32,838 nt of DNA, from positions 1 to 32,838 of the IMG/VR virus record IMGVR_UViG_3300010392_000413; one strand, given 5' to 3'. This DNA comes from a virus. This document shows positions 2,773 through 31,455 of the stretch, piece by piece. Numbering within the stretch: position 1 is the stretch's first letter; every line of letters begins with the position of its first letter. Under the pieces are notes generated by a model. The model did not search any database. It saw only the letters and a program-made list of their open reading frames with translations, and was not told where the DNA came from. A program made the position numbers and the translations under genes.

Positions 2773-5132
2773 TAGAAGGTCATAAGATCAGGGGGAGTCT
2801 GAAGCAGTTTGCCTCCTGCCGCATCCTTAGCCGCCTTCTTCTCAGCCTGCTCAAACTTTTTAGCGTTCAACCGCATACCAGCCTCGATGTCCTTTACAAT
2901 CTCCTGAGTCTCCTTGTAGACCTTAGGATCTCCCTTCTTAAAGTCGTTTAGTCTGCTCTTGAGCATGGTCAGAGTACCTGAACCATTGTGATGTTTGGCG
3001 ATGATACCAGATTCTGGATTAAGGGCATCCGGGGAGTCAACCAAGCGGAAGAAGTTATACGCCGCTGTCCTAACTCGGGAGATATCCTCTGCATCTTCCA
3101 GGATATTCTGGACCTGCTTGAGGGTGGGGTTGACATCCTCATCCTTGCCTTTGCTGGGCATGATGCCTTTGAGGCTAGTCTTGGGATTAGTGAATTGCAG
3201 CTCCTGCCCCTCTTGGAGGTGAGCCTGAATTGTGGTCCTACCCTCAAAGATAGCATTGTCCTTAGCCTCTCGGAATCGAGACATAACCATCTCATCCCCA
3301 GCCCACTGAAGTAGAGCAAGAGGGTTCTTACCACCTCGGGCATTCTGCACAACCTTGAGGTCTTCCTCACTGAGGCCTCGACCCTGGCTGATAATATACG
3401 CCTGGTCAATCTCAGCTGCAATCTGCTTAGCCATGATGACCCGCTCAGAAGTGGGCATACCCTTGCCACCTTCCCCAGCTAGCAACTGAAGCTTGTTAAT
3501 ACCTTTGATGAGCTGGTACCTAGCAAAGAGCTGCTTGCCCGCATCCTTGGCAATCTCTTTGTCTTGGAAGTCCACAGCAGGCTGTCTAGTGAGGACATTA
3601 CCCGCTGCATCCTTGGTAACAACTTCCCAACCATAGGCTTTAATCCGCCTCTCTGTAGGCTTCATGCCCTTGGCAATACCCTTATCAGTACCACCGCCAC
3701 CGCCTTTGCCCTTCTTCTTGAGCATTGCTGTCCGGGCAGCGATGAGGGAACCAGCGACCTTCAAGGCAGCATTCTGCCATCGGTCTTCCAGTTCAGCTAG
3801 CTGCAACTGAGCCGCCGCCAAAGCCTTCTCGTCCATGTTGCCAGCCATCTCCTTGTTTAGGACAGCGATGGCACCAGAGATCTTATTCATAGCACTCTTG
3901 GCCAGGGCAGCATTCTTTAGCTGAGTCAGCCTCTCATCGTCCAACTGATCTTGACGAAGGTGGCCCCTCTCCTGGATAATCTTGTTCAGGTTAGCTTCCT
4001 GAGCTGCCAGATCTGTCCGCATAGCATTGTCTAGGGCAGTGATGATGGGGTTGCCACCACCAAGGGTACCCTGCTTAAGCTGCAATGCTCTGTACAGACC
4101 GGAGCTATAGCCAAGGAGGAGCTTCTCTCCCAATCCCTTATCCTGCCAAGATGCTGCCGGATTAATAGACCCGCTTCGATACTGTTCATCCAACTCTGCA
4201 ATGGAAGAGAACCTATTGACAGCCCTCCCCATCATATCGTTGAAGTTAGCTTCTTCCTCTTCGGTCAGCTTGTTCAAGGTCTCGACCTCCGTCTGGAATC
4301 GATCCTCCATAGCCGCCTGGTCTACGGTAGCAACCTTCCTCTGAGCCTCAATAGCTTCGATGTAAGCGTCCTTAGACCCACCGATGAACTCAGAGACACC
4401 CTCTCCCAAAGACTGCGCTAGCGGCCCTGGGAGGATGCCTGAGAGGATGTTGGTAATCGTAGTAGCATCTTCAATATGCCTAGTCTCTCTGGCAACCCGG
4501 GCCCTGTACTCTTCCCTCTGCTGCTGAGTGGGAGGTACATAGCTCATCTGGGATTCCATCTCTGCTGGAGATGTACCCATACCCTCCTGGGGTAGTATAG
4601 TCGGGTCTACTTCACCAGGAGCCAATGGCCCCGGATCTACGTCACCAGCTTGCACACCCTGGATTAGGTCAATGTCGGACTGCCTCTGCATAGCAGCCTC
4701 TGCCTCTTCTGGGGTCCTAAGCTCCAGCCCCCCACCGGGGAAGCCGAACTGAGCCCTCTCTGCAGTCATTGTTGCTAGGCCCTGGTCCATAGCCGTGGGC
4801 GTAGAAGAGACTGGAGGAGTCAACGCCAGATCGCCTAAGCTGAACCTGTGCATCCGGCTATCGGCCAATCGCTGCTGGTCCGCTTCCATAAACTCGTCAA
4901 AGGAGGGAGCTGCTTTCTTCCCTCTCTTCCTCTTTACAGTAGAGCCAATCTTCTTGTTAGACTCGGCTAGGCTCTTATTGACTGCATCAATAGCTGCCTT
5001 CTCTGCCGCTGCCTGCTTTAGAGCCTCTTCTGCCGCCTTCTGTTTGTCGTGGGCCGCTGCTGCTTCTGCATCAAAGTCAATGACGTTGCCATTTCTACCG
5101 TAAGTGTAAAAGTCTTCTTTGGGACCGGCCAT
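2772..5132 (-). CDS. Large coiled-coil internal virion protein (786 aa)
   Basis: The protein is almost entirely charged and helical, rich in Lys, Glu, Ala and Gln. Residues about 20-75 are a Lys/Ala coiled-coil-like segment, residues 210-460 are long amphipathic helices, and a Gly-rich break with a run of five Gly follows the Lys cluster near residue 475. There is no signal peptide or recognisable enzymatic motif. With its neighbours it forms a trio of large proteins after the tail nozzle, as expected for core or ejection proteins of a short-tailed phage. Start and stop both overlap the neighbouring genes as TAATG. Function is inferred from composition and place. Confidence 0.6.
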   Translation of the reverse strand: MAGPKEDFYTYGRNGNVIDFDAEAAAAHDKQKAAEEALKQAAAEKAAIDAVNKSLAESNKKIGSTVKRKRGKKAAPSFDEFMEADQQRLADSRMHRFSLGDLALTPPVSSTPTAMDQGLATMTAERAQFGFPGGGLELRTPEEAEAAMQRQSDIDLIQGVQAGDVDPGPLAPGEVDPTILPQEGMGTSPAEMESQMSYVPPTQQQREEYRARVARETRHIEDATTITNILSGILPGPLAQSLGEGVSEFIGGSKDAYIEAIEAQRKVATVDQAAMEDRFQTEVETLNKLTEEEEANFNDMMGRAVNRFSSIAELDEQYRSGSINPAASWQDKGLGEKLLLGYSSGLYRALQLKQGTLGGGNPIITALDNAMRTDLAAQEANLNKIIQERGHLRQDQLDDERLTQLKNAALAKSAMNKISGAIAVLNKEMAGNMDEKALAAAQLQLAELEDRWQNAALKVAGSLIAARTAMLKKKGKGGGGGTDKGIAKGMKPTERRIKAYGWEVVTKDAAGNVLTRQPAVDFQDKEIAKDAGKQLFARYQLIKGINKLQLLAGEGGKGMPTSERVIMAKQIAAEIDQAYIISQGRGLSEEDLKVVQNARGGKNPLALLQWAGDEMVMSRFREAKDNAIFEGRTTIQAHLQEGQELQFTNPKTSLKGIMPSKGKDEDVNPTLKQVQNILEDAEDISRVRTAAYNFFRLVDSPDALNPESGIIAKHHNGSGTLTMLKSRLNDFKKGDPKVYKETQEIVKDIEAGMRLNAKKFEQAEKKAAKDAAGGKLLQTPPDLMTF

Positions 5133-16830: not shown

Positions 16831-17267
16831 CTGGCTCTATATCCCCTGTTATCATAGTGAACGAAATTCTTGTAGAGGCCGACTCCACCCTCTTCCATAA
16901 TGCCGAGGTTGATTAGGCCCTCAATCATTACCTTGACTAGGGCTGGCTCAACTCCCTGCACCTGGACATCTACAGCGAAGGCACCCTTGTCATAAAGGTG
17001 ATAGCTATTCTTGACCCCACCGACAGCGGCATTGTATTGGGGAGTCCTGTAGGCACTCGTAATGAAGATCCGACTGTCCAGGAACTCCCTGAGCGGCTGG
17101 AGATTCTTAGCTACAAACTTCTCCAGCTCTGGTACCAGTTCATCTGGAACTGGGGTGCCATCTCTACAGTCAAACTCGTACAGCCAGAAGTTGTTGCTGA
17201 GCTGCTGCCGTTCATTCTCAGTAGCGGGCATTTCTTTAATCGGTATCTGTTGTCCTACATCAGCCAT
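16824..17267 (-). CDS. Peptidase M15-family cell-wall hydrolase (147 aa)
   Basis: The start MADVGQQIPIKEMP at 17267 lies inside the end of terL; an ATG 12 codons upstream is less likely. Family features are TSAYRTPQYNAAVGG (residues 70-84), the zinc motif with His90 and Asp100 (SYHLYDKGAFAVDV), and the C-terminal FVHYDNRGYRARW with the third ligand His137. Peptidase M15 enzymes of this kind cut peptidoglycan stem peptides and serve phages as endolysins or virion-borne hydrolases. The usual His-x2-Gly-x-Ala-x-Asp spacing is longer here by three residues. No signal peptide is present. Its place between terL and portal is unusual for a lysis gene. Confidence 0.8.
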   Translation of the reverse strand: MADVGQQIPIKEMPATENERQQLSNNFWLYEFDCRDGTPVPDELVPELEKFVAKNLQPLREFLDSRIFITSAYRTPQYNAAVGGVKNSYHLYDKGAFAVDVQVQGVEPALVKVMIEGLINLGIMEEGGVGLYKNFVHYDNRGYRARW

Positions 17268-18901
17268 GTGCTGCCATCCTCTGCCAGTAGGACATCCGTC
17301 CACTCTGGCTCATATTCCTGTTCATCCTTACGAAGGTACTTCTCACACGCTGCCTGGTACTCTGCCTCGTCCCAGGCCTCGTAAAACTCAGTTGTCTCTG
17401 CCTCTGGCTCCACCTCTCTTTGCCTAGAGAAATGGTGAAGGGAGAACCTCCAGGTGTACAGCATAGCATCACAGAGGTGATTGGGCTGATTGGGGTCCTC
17501 TTTAAGCTTGTTCCGGCGAATGGCAGTCTTCTTGTCCATTCCTCTCAGATCCCACTGCAGGTGCATCATTTCCTCGAATAGGTCCGACCTAGCCAGGATT
17601 TTCAGCTTCTTGTCGTAAAGGTCCGAATTCAGCAGCTCAATGTGGTCTAACTTCTCAGATCTCTCTGCAGCCTCAATAAAGAAGCCATATTGCTTATTCA
17701 GGGTCTCTACGACCATTTTTGCGAGATTGCCGGTATCTGCGACCATAGCTTCGATCTTATCGTCGAATTGGTCCACAACCCTCTTTACAAGGGATGCAAT
17801 CTGCGGGACGATCATATGATTCGCCCGGAAGTCATAAACGTGATATAGAGTGTCTAAATAGGGACTGTAGGCAACTACGACCAAAGCAAAGTCGTCATTG
17901 AAGCCCATGTCCATTCCCATGATGTATTGCCACTCCATATCCTTGGGTAGCCCATGGTCATCGAATTTAGCGCCCTTACCTCGTTGCCAGACCGACCGGC
18001 ACTCCCCAACCCCGCCATCAGTGGCTACAAGGTGGTTGAGGGCATATACCATCGTATCGCCTTGAGATACCCACCTACCTAGCGCCTCTCGTTGCCAAGT
18101 GGGGTTATCATCGCTCCAGCCCTCCCTATTCTTATCATCTAGGAAGTTTGCCCAGATATGGGGGCAATGAACGTTCTGTTCGACCGTCCAGGTGTGTCTG
18201 GACCATCTCCACTTCTTATCTGGGTGCTCTCCCCACCAAACCTCGGGATTTCCGAAAGTCCGGGTCATTAGCCGCCCATGATCGTCTTTTAGGCCTGGAC
18301 AGGTCGCCTCATAGAAGGGTCCGTCCAGAATGTTGCCAGGAGTACCGATGATGCAAATAGTGCCATTTGTATCGTTAGTAGCAGCTCGAAGAATGTCGTC
18401 AACCAGCTCCTGAAACAGATATGTATCAAATGACTTACACTCATCGATCAAAACGAGTTTATAGGCTCCTCCACGGAGCTTTTCGATGTCTTTCATGGTC
18501 TCAGCCCCGTTTAAGAAGATCTGAGACCCATTTGGGAGCAAAATTACGTTATCTGCCCTCTTGTACTCCAGTTTTAGGGCATATTTGCGGTTAAACTCGG
18601 CAAATGGCTCCCAATAGAGCCTTTTTGCACTCCTCAGGGTCAATGTGATGATCGGAATCCGACATCCAGGGTTCTGAAGGGCGCAAATGAGGGCGTAGCA
18701 GATAGCCGTGTAGGTCTTACCGGCTCGTCTAGGGGTAATCAGGCTCTTTCGTCGATCCGGGTCGGTGACAAAGTCCTGTTGCTCCTTAAAGAGGTCTGCT
18801 AGAATAGCTTGCCAGGCGTCTCCATCTCGGATGCCTTGGTCTTTTGCGAGGGCGTTTTGGGCTTTTTGCTTTTGGAAGAGGATTTCTGTTTTTGTGGCCA
18901 T
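17255..18901 (-). CDS. terL: Terminase large subunit (packaging ATPase-nuclease)
   Basis: The 548-residue protein has the two terminase domains. The ATPase has Walker A TPRRAGKT (residues 56-63), Walker B KLVLIDE (148-154) with catalytic Glu154, and a coupling motif IIGTPG (184-189). The nuclease is RNase H-like, with Asp331 in MGMDMGFNDD, Asp389 in AMVADTGN and Asp478 in HLCDAML. It cuts concatemeric DNA and drives it through the portal. The first ATG gives this start. No good ribosome site precedes it, and the gene starts 103 bases inside the upstream gene, so coupled translation is likely. Confidence 0.93.
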   Translation of the reverse strand: MATKTEILFQKQKAQNALAKDQGIRDGDAWQAILADLFKEQQDFVTDPDRRKSLITPRRAGKTYTAICYALICALQNPGCRIPIITLTLRSAKRLYWEPFAEFNRKYALKLEYKRADNVILLPNGSQIFLNGAETMKDIEKLRGGAYKLVLIDECKSFDTYLFQELVDDILRAATNDTNGTICIIGTPGNILDGPFYEATCPGLKDDHGRLMTRTFGNPEVWWGEHPDKKWRWSRHTWTVEQNVHCPHIWANFLDDKNREGWSDDNPTWQREALGRWVSQGDTMVYALNHLVATDGGVGECRSVWQRGKGAKFDDHGLPKDMEWQYIMGMDMGFNDDFALVVVAYSPYLDTLYHVYDFRANHMIVPQIASLVKRVVDQFDDKIEAMVADTGNLAKMVVETLNKQYGFFIEAAERSEKLDHIELLNSDLYDKKLKILARSDLFEEMMHLQWDLRGMDKKTAIRRNKLKEDPNQPNHLCDAMLYTWRFSLHHFSRQREVEPEAETTEFYEAWDEAEYQAACEKYLRKDEQEYEPEWTDVLLAEDGSTWLM

Positions 18902-19101: not shown

Positions 19102-19534
19102 AAATAGGTTCCAAATCTTTCCTACGAGCTACTGCTGGGCAGTGAGACCCGTTTTTGAACTTACGACAATCAGGGGTTCTATAGGTGTAAAGGAAGGGTT
19201 GCCCTGAGACCGCCCCAGCTGCCTCTAGGAGCCTGGGAAAGAATCCCATGCCCCGGAGTACCGGCTTTACATAAACGTAGTGTATGACGGGGATGGCGGC
19301 CTCCTCGAAGGCGATAAAGCCAATCTGCGTCTCTGGGTCTTCCGACTCCATGATGAGGATCTGCATCCCCCGGCCCATGAGCTGGTTAACCCCCTCGAAG
19401 AACACCTGGTTGAACAGGTTGTTGGGGACTATACCGGCAAAGGGACTCTTCTTCCATCCTTTGAGCCAGGGGTCTAAGACGAACTTCTTATCGTCGCCGC
19501 CTGGGTCAAATGGTCTTATTTTTACGTTGCTCAT
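19073..19534 (-). CDS. GNAT-like acetyltransferase-fold protein (153 aa)
   Basis: The middle of the protein matches the GNAT core: a strand IGFIAFEEAAIPVIHYVYV (residues 71-89) followed by the acetyl-CoA-binding turn and helix VLRGMGFFPRLLEAAG (92-107), which fits the R/Q-x-x-G-x-G/A motif as R94-G-M-G97. The C-terminal part (YRTPDCRKFKNGSHCPAV) has two Cys and is atypical. It lies in the packaging block between the small-terminase candidate and terL and overlaps both neighbours by 29 bases. Its substrate is unknown. It might modify a host protein or serve structurally in packaging. Confidence 0.65.
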   Translation of the reverse strand: MSNVKIRPFDPGGDDKKFVLDPWLKGWKKSPFAGIVPNNLFNQVFFEGVNQLMGRGMQILIMESEDPETQIGFIAFEEAAIPVIHYVYVKPVLRGMGFFPRLLEAAGAVSGQPFLYTYRTPDCRKFKNGSHCPAVARRKDLEPIYAETPGKRS

Positions 19535-19922
19535 CCCGGTCGTACTCTATTTCTCTGAATCCCCGTAGGAGAGCATACCAGTTGTTCCGACCTAGGGCCT
19601 TTGCCCAATTCAGGAACGCCTCGACCTGCTCCTCCACCGACATGGACTCAGCCATCTTTTCATTCACCTGCTGGATCTTGAGATACATCTGACCAATCGA
19701 GTTAAGACTCTTGACCAGATCCTCCCCTTGCTTTGCCAGCCGGGCATTCCATTCTGGGGGAGTCTCTTCAGTGGAGCCATCAAACATGGCCCTCTCGTGC
19801 CTCTTGATGTGCTCGTCTAGGAGCCTCAACCCTCTAAGGAATGTCTGTTCTAGTTTAGGCCGGTTTCTCCGGTACCTAGCAAACGAATGTGTAAACGTTA
19901 CACTCTCTTCCGTACTCGCCAT
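19506..19922 (-). CDS. Probable terminase small subunit / first late gene (138 aa)
   Basis: The protein is helical and charged throughout. The N-terminal region RYRRNRPKLEQTFLRGLRLLDEHI could be DNA-binding and a central helix pair could oligomerise. No small-terminase family was recognised by motif. The call rests on size, helical nature and being the first gene of the operon containing terL. It starts about 190 bases downstream of a consensus sigma70 promoter. GGTGAT about 8 bases before the ATG may be the ribosome site. Confidence 0.5.
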   Translation of the reverse strand: MASTEESVTFTHSFARYRRNRPKLEQTFLRGLRLLDEHIKRHERAMFDGSTEETPPEWNARLAKQGEDLVKSLNSIGQMYLKIQQVNEKMAESMSVEEQVEAFLNWAKALGRNNWYALLRGFREIEYDRDEQRKNKTI

Positions 19923-19997
19923 ACAACTATCACCAAAATCCTACTTTGTTCTTCGTTCCCTTGTTAGCCCCTTGTTCCTAATAGATTGAACAATAGA

Positions 19998-20051
19998 GGA
20001 CTGAAAGTCCGAATGAGGTTGAAGTAAAAGGCCCGAAGGGACTTGCTTCAA
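19998..20051 (-). promoter_or_regulatory. Structured 5' leader of the late operon
   Basis: Two hairpins lie between the leftward promoter and the first late gene. One is long and stacked: TTGAAG/CTTCAA (20019-20024 with 20046-20051), then AAG/CTT and CCC/GGG with small symmetric interruptions. The second is a 5-bp stem GGACT/AGTCC with a 3-base loop (19998-20010). Neither is followed by a clear U tract. A processing site, attenuator or antitermination signal would fit; nothing in the sequence decides between them. Confidence 0.5.
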
Positions 20052-20095
20052 TGCCTCCAAAAGTACATAAGACTAAACATCAGGAACAAAACCTA

Positions 20096-20123
20096 TTGAC
20101 GTTTCTCTGTATATATATATTAT
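20096..20123 (+). promoter_or_regulatory. Rightward sigma70 promoter candidate
   Basis: TTGACG (20096-20101) and TATTAT (20118-20123) are separated by 16 bases, each one base off consensus. Transcription would start near 20131 and run through the origin into the rightward genes. The -10 overlaps the -10 of the leftward promoter, so both cannot be occupied at once. Confidence 0.6.
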
Positions 20124-20147
20124 ACACACTCCCCTACACCTTGTCAA
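20119..20147 (-). promoter_or_regulatory. Leftward sigma70 promoter, perfect consensus (late operon)
   Basis: Read on the minus strand, TTGACA (20147-20142) is followed after exactly 17 bases by TATAAT (20124-20119): both hexamers and the spacing are ideal. The start would be near 20112, giving a leader of about 190 bases before the first late gene. A promoter this strong in front of structural genes implies tight control by something else, perhaps the nearby operator-like palindromes or occupancy of the overlapping rightward promoter. Confidence 0.85.
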
Positions 20148-20219
20148 GGGTTATTTTACACTATCTCATAAGTCCACAGGTTCCTTGAGCTTTTCCCCTC
20201 CTCGAAGGCGGCTAAAAAG

Positions 20220-20236
20220 GTAGGTATATGTCCTAC
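20220..20236. promoter_or_regulatory. Operator-like palindrome, copy 1
   Basis: GTAGGTATATGTCCTAC has 5-base inverted arms (GTAGG/CCTAC) around an AT-rich centre. A nearly identical copy lies at 20346-20362, and a degenerate relative lies near 20289-20306. The arrangement suggests a dimeric regulator binding next to the divergent promoters. Confidence 0.55.
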
Positions 20237-20345
20237 ACACTCCTGTTATTCCCGTAGGGCGGGTGGGTGGCATCAACTATTATAGGGACTAGGAGACATA
20301 CTACCTATACTTGTCAACATCTGCCCACCTTTTGTCTCCCCTCAT

Positions 20346-20362
20346 GTAGGTATATATCCTAC
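20346..20362. promoter_or_regulatory. Operator-like palindrome, copy 2
   Basis: GTAGGTATATATCCTAC differs from copy 1 (20220-20236) by one base in the centre, with start points 126 bases apart. It borders the AT-rich stretch 20366-20389 on the promoter side of the DnaA boxes. Confidence 0.55.
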
Positions 20363-20413
20363 CCCTTTTCAAATCAAAATTTTGCATAGTCACAGTTCGG
20401 ACGCCCTCACAAG

Positions 20414-20759
20414 TTATCCACAGGGGAAATCCCCTTTAATATCAACCACTTAGCCACCCTTATCCACACCCCATCCACAGCTTATCCACAGGGGCATCCA
20501 TGTCATATGCAAGCCCCATGCCAACGGTGTACCCCACAATACCTAGTGATATCATACACTTAGGCCATGACATCAATGTCATACCACCACGACATCCATG
20601 TCATACCCCTGACATCAATGTCATACCTCCAAGTAGGCGATATCATTGGGCAAATGACAGCAATGTCAGTGTCAAATATGCCACAGAATCGGGCTGAGCA
20701 CCATTCAAAAACCACTTATCCACAGGTAGTCATATCAACCACTTAGCGACTTATCCACA
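20414..20759 (+). repeat. Five perfect DnaA boxes (TTATCCACA)
   Basis: TTATCCACA occurs at 20414-20422, 20460-20468, 20482-20490, 20716-20724 and 20751-20759, all in the same orientation, four of them followed by GG. This is the strongest consensus site for bacterial DnaA. A degenerate CCATCCACA sits at 20471-20479 between two boxes. Five exact copies in about 350 bases cannot be chance in a sequence of this composition. Confidence 0.9.
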
Positions 20760-21028
20760 GGAGCCACTTGAACCCCCTTCATTGGGGTCTGTGGCCCCCA
20801 ACTGAGGACCATTCAACCTGAGGCCCATTCAGGCCCCACTGAGTACAGCAGACCCCACTTAGTGTCCCATTGGCGATTAGCGTCGACCCGGCCCGAGTAC
20901 GGTGGCGGGGGTCGATTGTCCCCATCGCAGGTGGCCGCCTGTACGGCCCGTGGTCGGCTCCAACGGTCGGGGGCGGCTAGGGCCCATGGCAGCCAGTTCC
21001 GCAGTTTCCCAACAATATCAACCACTTA
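20438..21028 (+). repeat. Dispersed repeat ATATCAACCACTTA
   Basis: The 14-mer lies within 20438-20453, 20732-20747 and 21014-21028, with a two-mismatch copy at 20549-20563 and a partial one near 20709-20719. The first two full copies stand beside DnaA boxes. The motif is not palindromic, and all copies point the same way. It may be a binding site for another replication or transcription protein. Confidence 0.6.
20568..20668. repeat. Palindromic iterons TGACAT-N2-ATGTCA
   Basis: Copies lie at 20568-20581 and 20610-20623 (both TGACATCAATGTCA), 20590-20603 (CGACATCCATGTCA) and 20655-20668 (TGACAGCAATGTCA). A half-conserved fifth lies at 20494-20505. The first three are followed by TACC and are centred 22 and 20 bases apart, about two helical turns, so bound dimers would line up on one face. 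This looks like an initiator or repressor array. Confidence 0.75.
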
Positions 21029-21436
21029 CACCGATTCAGCTGAATACACCTCAGGGGCCGAAAAATCGACATCGATGGGCGATTTTGTGTCGATTTCGGT
21101 AGACACGGGGGCCGAGCTTTAGTAGTGTGGTTCTTGTAGCGACATGGCGGGGCCCAACGGGGCCGAGACCCTACGGGGCCGTTTCAGACGATAGGCTAGG
21201 GCCAGCCGATGGGACCCCAACAGATGCTCGGTACTTCGTCCTTAGTGTGGGGGCGACCCGGTTCGCGAGCATAGGCGCTAGGGGCATGACAGCGGATTGC
21301 ACTCTCCGAGTAGGGCAACGAGCTGAAGCATGTAGGTGTAGCGGCATCAACTCCTAATGGTAGGGGCCTTGATAGTGGCGGGGGGCATGTTGCCTCTCCC
21401 CATAGTTGAGACCCAAACATACGGAGATAGAAAACC
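20761..21436. other. Non-coding stretch before the rightward genes
   Basis: About 680 bases without a convincing gene: short open frames here lack ribosome sites and have odd composition. Visible items are CCATTCA repeated at 20701, 20809 and 20825; a TTGGGG/CCCCAA hairpin near 20783-20802; a perfect 12-base palindrome ATTCAGCTGAAT (21034-21045); a strong hairpin at 21058-21099; and five GGGGCC motifs between 21054 and 21180. No good sigma70 promoter for the first rightward gene was seen. Confidence 0.55.
21058..21099. promoter_or_regulatory. Strong inverted repeat in the control region
   Basis: CCGAAAAATCGACA (21058-21071) pairs with TGTCGATTTCGG (21088-21099) in a 12-bp stem with a two-A bulge and a 16-base loop. 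No U tract follows on either strand. It could act as a single-strand origin, a protein site or an mRNA leader structure. Confidence 0.5.
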
Positions 21437-22249
21437 ATGTTCAATCTAGACAACCTAATCAGTGACAGTGACATCGAAACCGCTAGCAAGCCGGAAACGG
21501 TTAGAGCCGGCGGTATCAAACGGTCGCAAGCGCAGGCATTCGCCAATCAAGGCGGACAAGCCGGCTTCTTCGTCAAGGCTGCGCAGGCATGGATGGCCAA
21601 TGATTCGGCCCCTTGCATGTATATCCCAACGGTTGCTTTGCAGCCGGTACTGGTGGCAGCGGTTCAGATGATTGACGCTGAGTGGCCAGTTCAGACCGGT
21701 GAAAAGCTTTCGAGCCTCGCCATGCGGACTTGGCATTCCGCTGAAATCAAAGACCGAGGCAAGGGTATTAATGCCTTGCTAGGCCAGTTGAACGGCTACC
21801 GTCCGGATGGATTCGCTGTTCTGGGATTGCGAGCATTTCGAGCTAGTAATGGCAAGATTGCAATCGTGATTCATGAGCAGACGAAACGAACCAAGAAGCT
21901 CCGAGAGCGACTTGGAGTGTCGGAGAATGCCGGTGATACTGAGTTCGACCAGGCGATTGCGGCGCAAGCTCAAGTCGAATGGGACAAGCTCGAAGGCATC
22001 GCCGATGGCAGCATCGACATCACGCCGAAGAAGGTAACCGAAGAGGGTATCGAATCGGTCACCGTTCGAAAGGCTCACGATAAAGCAGACGCCGATGAGC
22101 TTGAACGAGTCCGCAAGCTCTACGCTGAGAAAGGCGACGAGCTACCCTTTGACGATGACGATTACCTAATCCATACGGACGACGGTGAATTGTACACGTT
22201 GGAGCATAGCGGCGATCTAGTCCACCGAGACGACCTAGTCACTAGCTAG
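21437..22249 (+). CDS. First rightward gene, unknown (270 aa)
   Basis: The gene has a ribosome site (GGAGAT, about 9-12 bases before the ATG) and begins MFNLDNLISDSDIETASKP. The N-terminal part is mixed alpha/beta. Residues 145-160 are basic (EQTKRTKKLRERLG), and the C-terminus is very acidic (DELPFDDDDYLIHTDDGELY). Lying next to the origin with no other candidate, it could be an origin-binding or early regulatory protein, but no helix-turn-helix or nuclease motif is clear. It has more CGA and GAA codons than the small genes that follow. Confidence 0.7.
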   Translation: MFNLDNLISDSDIETASKPETVRAGGIKRSQAQAFANQGGQAGFFVKAAQAWMANDSAPCMYIPTVALQPVLVAAVQMIDAEWPVQTGEKLSSLAMRTWHSAEIKDRGKGINALLGQLNGYRPDGFAVLGLRAFRASNGKIAIVIHEQTKRTKKLRERLGVSENAGDTEFDQAIAAQAQVEWDKLEGIADGSIDITPKKVTEEGIESVTVRKAHDKADADELERVRKLYAEKGDELPFDDDDYLIHTDDGELYTLEHSGDLVHRDDLVTS

Positions 22250-28003: not shown

Positions 28004-28238
28004 AGAGAAGCTAGAAGATTTGAGAGAGATGATCGACGTGGCTACAGATACTCTAGAAAGGTTAGAGGAATCAGGACTGCCAGCTAATCTGGCAGCAGGG
28101 TCACTGGCCATCGCTATCGGAATTTTGGTAGAGAATGTGGGTGAGGCTCAGGAGTTAGTGAGGACCGCCCACAATGAAGTTAACGCAATCCTAGCTGAAG
28201 CTAAAAAAGACGACGAAAAGAAGGAGATGATGAATTGA
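27993..28238 (+). CDS. Small helical acidic protein (81 aa)
   Basis: I chose the ATG at 27993 (MTDEEKLEDLREMIDVATD), with GGAG about 9 bases upstream; it overlaps the lipoprotein stop by 11 bases. The protein is a heptad-like helix with a small hydrophobic middle (ANLAAGSLAIAIGILVENVG) and a Lys/Glu/Asp tail. The TGA overlaps the TTG start of the next gene. No family is recognised. Confidence 0.55.
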   Translation: MTDEEKLEDLREMIDVATDTLERLEESGLPANLAAGSLAIAIGILVENVGEAQELVRTAHNEVNAILAEAKKDDEKKEMMN

Positions 28239-28966
28239 GCAAACTGAACCAGATCATCGCAGTTGAGAAGAGTGTTAAGAGTGAGGCTCACAAGAGTGCC
28301 TCTACCGTTTACAAGCAGGTACAGAAGCCAGCCTTATTTGATGGCTTCGTAAAGAATTGGCGTCCTTCTGAGGACAGTGGTGAAGAACGACCCCCAGAAT
28401 CTAAACGGGTCCAGATCAGAGCACAAGAGGCTCTGGATCTCCTACGAGAGAGTTTCTCGGAACTAATCGACATCACTGCCCAGAAGGACTATGCTAACTG
28501 TGGAGCTACTGCTGACGTTGTTGTTGCTGGTCGTACCATCGTTGCTGGGGCACCTGTCACTTACCTTCTATTCCTGGAGAAGTACCTCATTGACATCCGA
28601 GCCTTCCTCTCCCATCTCCCAGTCCTATCCGAGGATGAGAAGTGGGAGCTTCGAGAGGCTACCGGATTGTATGAGAGTGAGCCTCTAACCACTCAGAGTA
28701 CTAAGAAGGTACAGAAGCCGATCGTCCTTTACGATGCAACGGAGAGGCACCCGGCGCAGACTCAGTTGGTTAGCCAGGATGTCATTGTTGGACACTGGGA
28801 GACGATCAAGCAGAGTGGGGCTATGTCCCGGGATCAGAAGAAGCTCTACCTTACTAGGGTAGATACACTGTTGAAGGCAGTTAAGTTTGCCAGAGAGGAA
28901 GCAAATGCAGTAGATGCACCGAAGATCAACGTCAGTGACGAGGTCTTCAACTATCTACTGGGATAG
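28235..28966 (+). CDS. DUF7873-like conserved protein (243 aa)
   Basis: The TTG start overlaps the previous TGA and is preceded by AAGGAG. The pattern MSKLNQIIAVEKSVKSEAHK, VQKPALFDGFVKNWRP, DITAQKDYANCGATADVVV, VTYLLFLEKYLIDIRAFL and DATERHPAQTQLV is one I associate with a protein found widely in actinobacteria and phages and named only as a domain of unknown function. It has a long helical middle and no catalytic motif I can name. It precedes the RNA island and may be of early or middle class. Confidence 0.7.
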   Translation: MSKLNQIIAVEKSVKSEAHKSASTVYKQVQKPALFDGFVKNWRPSEDSGEERPPESKRVQIRAQEALDLLRESFSELIDITAQKDYANCGATADVVVAGRTIVAGAPVTYLLFLEKYLIDIRAFLSHLPVLSEDEKWELREATGLYESEPLTTQSTKKVQKPIVLYDATERHPAQTQLVSQDVIVGHWETIKQSGAMSRDQKKLYLTRVDTLLKAVKFAREEANAVDAPKINVSDEVFNYLLG

Positions 28967-29057: not shown

Positions 29058-29164
29058 TCGATTTACTCAAGCCTTAGAGATACGGGTTCGATTCCCGTGA
29101 GTCCCTCCACGTATGGGACTCTGGTCAAATGGCAAGACGCTAACGTTAACGTAAAGTAGATCGA
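29058..29164 (+). tRNA. Circularly permuted tRNA-like gene (isotype uncertain)
   Basis: The 3' half comes first: TTAG (29074-29077), a T arm ACGGG-TTCGATT-CCCGT (29082-29098), acceptor strand GAGTCCC (29099-29105), U73 and encoded CCA (29107-29109). After CGTAT the 5' half follows: acceptor GGGACTC (29115-29121), a perfect 7-bp match, T8, a D arm GTC/GAC with A14, G18-G19 and A21 in place, and CTAA (29140-29143), which pairs with TTAG. The helix continues outward (GTT/AGC, a 3x3 loop, GTAAA/TTTAC, TCGA/TCGA) instead of closing in an anticodon loop. Joining within the 3x3 loop would give GTTAAGC, with a UAA anticodon. No conventional tRNA can be built from either half. Confidence 0.6.
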
Positions 29165-29185
29165 GAAAGACAATCTCACAAGCAT

Positions 29186-29260
29186 ACGTTTGTAGATCAG
29201 CTCGGTTAGATCGCAAGACTTTTAATCTTGATGTCGTAGGTTCAAATCCTACCAAACATG
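29186..29260 (+). tRNA. tRNA-Lys (anticodon UUU)
   Basis: D stem GATC/GATC with loop AGCTCGGTTA, anticodon stem CAAGA/TCTTG with loop CTTTTAA (anticodon at 29221-29223), variable region ATGTC and T arm GTAGG-TTCAAAT-CCTAC are all canonical. The acceptor ACGTTTG/CAAACAT has a C2-A71 mismatch, and position 73 is G rather than the usual A. No CCA is encoded, unlike both neighbouring RNAs. Confidence 0.8.
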
Positions 29261-29274
29261 AACATGCCATAGAG

Positions 29275-29308: not shown

Positions 29309-29393
29309 GGGGACGGTGATAGGTATCGACAGGGTAGAGAGCCTCCAGTAGGAACTATTCTGGACCTCGGTTCGACTCCGAGCGTCTCCACCA
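29309..29393 (+). ncRNA. Minimal tmRNA-like RNA (tRNA-like domain only)
   Basis: The acceptor GGGGACG (29309-29315) pairs with CGTCTCC (29383-29389), with a G3-U70 pair, A73 and encoded CCA: the alanine identity set shared by tRNA-Ala and tmRNA. GGTATCGACAGGG matches the tmRNA D-region rather than a tRNA D arm. TGGAC then the T arm CTCGG-TTCGACT-CCGAG is the usual tmRNA 3' end. Between them a hairpin (TCCAGTAG with CTATTCTGGA, GAA loop) takes the place of helix 2. No tag frame or pseudoknots are present, giving 85 bases instead of about 350. Confidence 0.7.
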
Positions 29394-31053: not shown

Positions 31054-31455
31054 ATGAATCTACAAATTATCCACGGTAACCTTGGTGCTGATCCCGACCT
31101 TCGAGAGGTTGGCAGCTCTGTCGTCTGCAATATGACCGTCGCTACCAACGAAGTCTGGTTTAGCAAGGACGGAGAGAAGCAGGAGCATACGGAGTGGCAC
31201 AAGGTTGAGGTCTGGGGCTCCCAGGCAGAAGCCTGCGCTAAGTACCTTGCCAAGGGTGCTGGTGTCATTGTTCAGGGTAACCCTCGGACTCGGACCTATG
31301 AGACCGACGATGGGGACACTCGATACATTACGGAGATCAAGAATGCCCGGGTGGAGTTTATGCCCAAGGCTGGCGGATCTCAGGAGGCATCGGCTAAACC
31401 GAGTCGGCGTCGATCTCGAAAGAAGTCTTCGGCTACTGACTTCCCTGTAGCTTAA
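31054..31455 (+). CDS. ssb: Single-stranded DNA-binding protein
   Basis: The 133-residue protein has the SSB OB-fold: MNLQIIHGNLGADPDLREVG, VVCNMTVATNEVWFSKDGEK, then TEWHKVEVWGSQAEACAKYL and GAGVIVQGNPRTRTYETDDG. It ends with a basic linker (KPSRRRSRKKS) and SSATDFPVA rather than the acidic DDIPF tip of host SSB, so it may not recruit the same partners. AAAAGGAAAA precedes the ATG. A strong terminator follows, closing the recombination block. Confidence 0.9.
   Translation: MNLQIIHGNLGADPDLREVGSSVVCNMTVATNEVWFSKDGEKQEHTEWHKVEVWGSQAEACAKYLAKGAGVIVQGNPRTRTYETDDGDTRYITEIKNARVEFMPKAGGSQEASAKPSRRRSRKKSSATDFPVA

Follow-up and report, generated by a model that had tools for sequence, protein, structure and literature searches.

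Genome organization around the divergent region

The window analyzed here, taken over its whole length, is a 32,838-bp IMG/VR virus record from an uncultured virus of bacteria, and it is a fragment, judging by a DnaB-type helicase gene truncated at the right end. The leftward genes encode the terminase, an endolysin, a portal-like head-tail adaptor, the major head protein and virion proteins, the late genes being of podovirus type, and the rightward genes include those for an exonuclease, a single-strand DNA binding protein (SSB) and the helicase (Table 1). Leftward late and rightward early genes part in a single region, which agrees with the preliminary description of this DNA as a centre of divergence. 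The region is apparently non-coding; the largest ORF wholly within it has 86 aa (20862-21122, +), and a 116-aa TTG ORF (21196-21546, -) reaches into it antisense to the 270-aa gene. Structure models gave a pLDDT of 42 for the 270-aa protein (unusable) and 59 for a 148-aa early protein. Neither an integrase nor a repressor was among the family matches for the part of the ORFs scanned in this fragment. No Rfam family reached its gathering score in the divergent region (best sub-threshold match for 19900-21500, E 0.28), and its DNA had no match in plasmids; one 44-bp match to a microvirus, found on comparison with phages, was taken as chance.

RNA-like elements were also found further along the rightward arm. 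An 85-nt match to the tmRNA model (29309-29393) runs from the first to the last model position with 62.9 bits (gathering 47) and has almost no mRNA part, so that it may be a tmRNA-like tRNA domain only; the match was not listed when a 301-base stretch was searched. At 29078-29150, a T arm, an acceptor 3' end with CCA and, after 5 nt, a matching acceptor 5' strand with a D-like arm look like a circularly permuted tRNA-like gene, and its halves, when rejoined, gave a long hairpin and no ARAGORN calls other than odd ones. Both elements lie beside a tRNA-Lys (ttt) at 29185-29261. The nearby 28235-28966 encodes a DUF7873 protein (3.9e-92), a family common to 73 phages of very different hosts.

Table 1 Genes and sequence elements in and around the divergent region, numbered as in the window.
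Feature	Position	Strand	Basis or remark
Terminase large subunit	17255..18901	-	phrog_2, 3.7e-26
First leftward gene, 138 aa, no family	19506..19922	-	positional counterpart L006 1802-2245
Divergent intergenic region holding all elements	19923..21436		~1.5 kb between leftward late and rightward early genes
Least stable 50-mer of contig, candidate unwinding element	20074..20123		nearest-neighbour stability; overlaps leftward promoter
Sigma-70-type promoter TTGACA-17-TATAAT, toward late genes	20119..20147	-	12/12 matches; predicted
Imperfect palindrome GTAGGTATATGTCCTAC, copy 1	20220..20236		family D10; copy 2 at 20346-20362
Second candidate unwinding element, adjoins box 1	20341..20390		among ten least stable 50-mers
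IHF-consensus site AATCAAAATTTTG	20372..20384	+	WATCAANNNNTTR match
DnaA box 1, module A	20414..20422	+	exact TTATCCACA
IHF-consensus site TATCAACCACTTA, between boxes 1 and 2	20440..20452	+	WATCAANNNNTTR match; repeat family D1
DnaA box 2, module A	20460..20468	+	exact TTATCCACA
DnaA box 3, module A, 22 bp from box 2	20482..20490	+	exact TTATCCACA
Palindrome TGACA-N4-TGTCA	20568..20581		exact
Palindrome TGACA-N4-TGTCA	20590..20603		one mismatch
Palindrome TGACA-N4-TGTCA	20610..20623		exact
Palindrome TGACA-N4-TGTCA	20655..20668		exact
DnaA box 4, module B	20716..20724	+	exact TTATCCACA
IHF-consensus site TATCAACCACTTA, between boxes 4 and 5	20733..20745	+	WATCAANNNNTTR match; repeat family D1
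DnaA box 5, module B	20751..20759	+	exact TTATCCACA
IHF-consensus site TATCAACCACTTA	21016..21028	+	WATCAANNNNTTR match; repeat family D1
First rightward early-arm gene, 270 aa, no family	21437..22249	+	family searches
Single-strand DNA binding protein	31054..31455	+	phrog_44, 1.2e-37
DnaB-like replicative helicase, off contig end	31928..32836	+	phrog_19, 4.3e-19; Pfam DnaB N-domain

DnaA boxes and IHF-consensus sites form two modules

The nonamer TTATCCACA is present in five exact copies on one strand, and the 32,838-bp contig contains no other. Shuffled contigs held 0.24 copies on average and never five or more (0/100 shuffles), at least three boxes arose in 0/20,000 simulations of the local 801 bp under order-1 and under order-2 models, and TTATCCACA is the top-clustered 9-mer of the contig (346-bp span). 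The sequence common to all five copies is the 9-bp box alone; flanks differ, although GG comes next in four of the five, and no 1-mismatch box was found among the exact ones. The five-box cluster reported in the preliminary description is thereby confirmed, and more strongly than first stated. Its wording "perfect host DnaA boxes" holds for the exactness of the match, and the word "host" is presumptive. The AT-rich stretch said to adjoin the boxes is also there: the least stable 50-mer of the contig by nearest-neighbour stability (20074-20123) lies 5' of the boxes, as do 20272-20321 and 20341-20390, two more of the ten least stable.

A point missed at that stage is that the accompanying direct repeat, TATCAACCACTTA, fits the IHF consensus WATCAANNNNTTR (PMC4585315), as does ATATCAACCACTTAG, a direct repeat returned by the repeat search. 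The consensus is matched five times in the contig against a shuffle mean of 0.72 (0/100 shuffles reach five), and four of the five matches fall within the same ~0.7 kb as the boxes, where 0.02 would be expected; three of these four are exact copies of one repeat. Boxes and IHF-consensus sites are arranged in two box-IHF-box modules, with module A comprising the box at 20414, the IHF site at 20440, the box at 20460 and a further box at 20482 (span 20414-20490), and module B the box at 20716, the IHF site at 20733 and the box at 20751 (span 20716-20759). The modules flank an array of four TGACA-N4-TGTCA palindromes within 101 bp, of which one has a mismatch and exact copies are absent from the rest of the contig.

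A sister contig shares the palindromes and an IHF-consensus site

Searches of viral contigs with the terminase, the first rightward protein, the portal and the capsid returned a single sister, L006/L007 (portal 88%, capsid 78% and terminase 74% identical by alignment), and a portal search of genome contigs returned no relatives. The sister has a ~1.2-kb divergence region in the same place, with one TGACA-N4-TGTCA palindrome, a second with a mismatch and one IHF-consensus site, TATCAACAACTTG, that differs from the window repeat only where the consensus is open; taken alone this IHF match is weak, at least one match being found in 84/200 shuffles of L007. An exact DnaA box is absent from the whole 22,552-bp record, and the region contains one TTATTCACA. 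On this comparison of two sequences, the IHF site and palindromes look like a conserved core; the DnaA boxes seem either to have been added or to have been lost in the sister.

Box clusters recur upstream of one terminase family

IMG/VR was scanned for two boxes 10-40 bp apart and for the reversed motif. Each search gave at least 120 loci, which makes the totals unusable as a measure of enrichment, and the contents of the two sets were compared instead. Among the matches listed, at least four boxes within 346 bp were present in 39/120 box-pair loci compared with 9/120 reversed-motif loci. According to a crude custom ORF caller, 30 of the 39 box clusters were intergenic and 13 lay between divergent ORFs; the corresponding figures for the nine reversed-motif clusters were 3 and 0. 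Phages with DnaA boxes, presented as exceptional in the preliminary description, are thus a recurrent occurrence.

One terminase family (group X) was found in 24 of the 120 box-pair loci listed and in none of the 120 reversed-motif loci listed, with L105, a weaker relative (terminase 30%), left out of the 24. Among the matches listed, the reversed-motif set had one weak terminase (25%), and a set of palindrome-pair loci had four weak ones and no group X (0/120). The 24 group X loci have 112 boxes, every one of them upstream of the terminase and none in the 103,603 bp on its other side; 81/112 have the same sense as in the window, and in 15 loci all boxes do. Steps between boxes peak at 11-12 and 21-23 bp, in runs such as AAGTTATCCACAGGTTATCCACAGG, and the 11-12 bp class is outside what the search pattern could select.

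Five of the 24 records were read whole, and the early arm was scanned for families in one of them (G004). The boxes sit at the minus-to-plus strand switch in all five and within ~0.2 kb of the skew minimum in four. The window likewise has its cumulative GC-skew minimum (21051) in the divergent region, as far as the skew check proposed in the preliminary description goes; because skew tracks gene direction it is not independent evidence, and as proof of an origin it was rejected (it follows gene direction in six records, and the minimum of G003 is away from the boxes). The genes of G004 include those for a primase-helicase, a family A polymerase, ThyX and ribonucleotide reductase, and the first rightward ORF of at least 80 aa past its DnaA boxes (L398 8448-9230) is an N6/N4 DNA methyltransferase. 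G002 has a second group of three boxes (34103-34207) ~2 kb from the main array. In G001, G002 and G003 the first 100 bases are repeated near the record end, and these three may be complete genomes of ~32-36 kb.

Near the group X boxes, 10 IHF-consensus sites were counted compared with 1.3 expected, but the reversed pattern was also elevated there (0.30/kb inside, 0.08/kb outside); in the other clusters, density inside was 0.39/kb versus 0 for the reversed pattern. Overall, enrichment of IHF-consensus sites near boxes in other phages is moderate. Kinship of the window terminase to group X is distant: 28% across 195 aa, with a profile probability of 98% across the ATPase part. Common descent of the window and group X origins is not claimed, and their shared placement may be convergent. 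Two palindrome-pair loci, L317 and L367, have terminases ~30% like that of the window and no DnaA boxes; a link between palindrome pairs and this terminase is not claimed, 2/120 versus 0/240 among the matches listed being too few. The terminase of Pelagibacter phage Greip (L369) also matches that of the window, and the Greip record is without exact TTATCCACA and has a Bac_DnaA_C domain protein annotated at 4477-4998 (- strand).

Box clusters are patchily distributed among relatives

The 24 group X loci had been selected for boxes, and a counter-sample of 21 loci was obtained from GTDB contigs by a search with the terminase only. None of the 21 has a box cluster. An exact box within 4 kb was absent from all nine relatives with at least 46% identity and at least 900 bp of upstream DNA; the other 12, excluded because identity was low or the upstream DNA short, are likewise without boxes. 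Single one-mismatch hits were found twice among the terminase-sampled relatives, and one of these relatives, L371, has one exact box at 6.4 kb. L371 also carries TCTAAATCC three times in 11-bp steps ~1042-1072 bp upstream of the terminase, near the place of the DnaA boxes in box-bearing relatives, and these repeats may be the sites of another initiator. On a terminase tree of 21 positive and 9 negative rows, from which the partial terminases of L034, L115 and L122 were omitted and in which L372 and L373 stayed unlabelled for want of upstream DNA, the box label needs at least six changes. Among 13 named phages none has a box cluster, and two have one box.

Comparison with known replication origins

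The unwinding element of E. coli oriC is on the 3' side of R1. The window resembles a bacterial oriC in its cluster of exact R-type boxes (five), in the IHF sites inside that cluster (as consensus matches) and in the adjoining unstable DNA at a gene-direction switch. It differs in having exact boxes only, in their wide spacing, in the AT-rich DNA being 5' of the boxes and in the cluster not being conserved in close relatives (no exact box in the sister, and 0/9 among terminase-sampled group X relatives). The same scan settings returned two exact boxes in the oriC stretch of E. coli K-12.

P1 oriR is described as combining two DnaA-box arrays with an IHF site, AT-rich DNA and a further repeat array, and host DnaA and IHF as assisting several iteron plasmids, with DnaA, Rep and IHF sharing the work in pSC101 and R6K (PMC4980987, PMC5043065). 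The origin of the plasmid-prophage P1, as described there, has the two box groups, IHF site, repeat array and AT-rich DNA of the window, and other iteron plasmids (RK2, pSC101, R6K) are counted with it among the closest systems. Unlike the Rep-bound direct iterons of those plasmids, the second array of the window is palindromic, and its main direct repeats fit IHF sites or DnaA boxes. The window also differs in its three exact copies of an IHF-consensus repeat, in the podovirus-type late genes of the contig and in the absence of a Rep family among the early proteins scanned in this fragment.

Among phages, the origin that Ori-Finder predicts for Pseudomonas phage vB_PseuGesM_254 has DnaA boxes and AT-rich DNA in common with the window (PMC11512268); IHF modules and a cross-phage comparison are absent from the part of that source describing it. 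The lambda origin is comparable as a theta-type phage origin on host machinery, but there the phage proteins O and P are described as standing in for DnaA as initiator (PMC5043065).

A proposed facultative DnaA/IHF-assisted origin and its alternatives

We favor the reading, at a probability of roughly 0.55, that the region is an origin of the oriC or P1 oriR design, which DnaA and IHF would assist facultatively. The region would be the phage replication origin, or its core, and would enlist two host proteins: DnaA would bind the five high-affinity boxes and IHF would bind and bend the DNA at the sites between them. The resulting box-IHF-box complexes would help a phage-coded factor bound at the intervening palindromes, and together they would open the nearby AT-rich DNA and load the phage DnaB-type helicase, with replication then proceeding outward along both gene arms. 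DnaA would probably act as a helper and not as a strict requirement, because close relatives are without boxes.

The DnaA-dependent origin put forward in the preliminary description therefore survives in part. Its IHF repeats, palindromes, unstable DNA, divergence and recurrent placement (24/120 versus 0/120 of the loci listed) make the region origin-like, and the SSB, exonuclease and DnaB-type helicase genes in the rightward arm also speak for an origin. A strict need for DnaA is doubtful: the sister has no exact box, and relatives sampled without regard to boxes have none. These absences (no exact box in the sister, one within 4 kb in 0/9 terminase-sampled relatives and a cluster in 0/13 named phages) count against an origin as a whole, as do the boxes facing away from the AT-rich DNA when compared with oriC, the primase-helicase and polymerase of one group X phage's own, the lack of an identified initiator gene and the distant kinship between the window terminase and the recurrent group X family.

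The strongest rival, which we nevertheless consider unlikely, is a datA-like sink, akin to the titration site also raised in the preliminary description. The modules would bind DnaA, possibly with faster hydrolysis of its ATP, and many phage copies would thereby starve or switch off host initiation, with phage replication starting elsewhere or without DnaA. It ranks first because datA requires an IHF site lying, at a set spacing, between its DnaA boxes 2 and 3 (PMC4585315, PMC5835720), and the window has this box-IHF-box order twice, with DnaA boxes on both sides of an IHF site each time. The scan settings used here recover known sites in the datA stretch of E. coli K-12 (one exact box and one IHF-consensus site), exclusively exact boxes would suit a titrator, and absence from the sister fits a dispensable function. 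However, the datA IHF site faces the opposite way and is farther from the exact box (a comparison with the E. coli datA exact box and IHF site, to which box numbers are unassigned), and the window differs further in having two modules, sites all on one strand and a location in a phage divergence region. Nor would a sink have to lie where the arms diverge or upstream of the terminase, yet in 24/24 group X loci the boxes are upstream, and five boxes per genome would make a small sink early in infection.

DnaA is also a transcription regulator, and a switch in which DnaA and IHF between the two arms would control early and late promoters, tying infection to the host growth state, comes next and is improbable. 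The perfect sigma-70-type promoter and two imperfect palindromes in the same region are in keeping with it, as is the resemblance of palindrome arrays to operators. Sites for the host cell-cycle regulator CtrA have been described in phages, but the same study reports DnaA sites without positional bias in its alphaproteobacterial phages (PMC9437464). Moreover, the boxes lie at least 267 bp from the leftward promoter (-35 at 20147), the promoter scan of the region found no strong rightward promoter, and the tandem arrays of group X, with many boxes in 11 bp steps, better fit an initiator filament. Boxes without present function, arising by repeat expansion or left from the origin of a former host, would explain the patchy presence (the label changes on the terminase tree, the sister) but are very unlikely, given that nothing beyond the 9-bp box is common to the five copies and their flanks vary, that clusters recur in a fixed place in other phages and that the IHF repeat and the sister's site differ only at consensus-open positions.

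Implications for uncultivated phages

In textbook phages that carry replication genes of their own, replication begins independently of the host initiator. At least one lineage of the short-genome phages considered here has its own primase-helicase and polymerase. As a tentative proposal that we ourselves hold to be doubtful, several lineages of uncultivated short-genome phages may have acquired and dropped a host-type orisome of DnaA boxes and IHF sites time and again, at one fixed position upstream of the terminase; host DnaA and IHF would then decide when or whether phage replication starts, or the same sites would draw DnaA and IHF off the host chromosome. The parts of such an arrangement are known, and its owner and layout are unusual; no description of DnaA-IHF modules in such phages was recognized from titles and abstracts in the open-access literature, which leaves subscription journals mostly outside. 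If the boxes work, environmental phages would tie their own or their host's replication to DnaA and IHF, and the patchy presence would be a natural experiment on an origin adding and dropping a host initiator. Box clusters also offer a sequence-only route to origins in uncultured phages.
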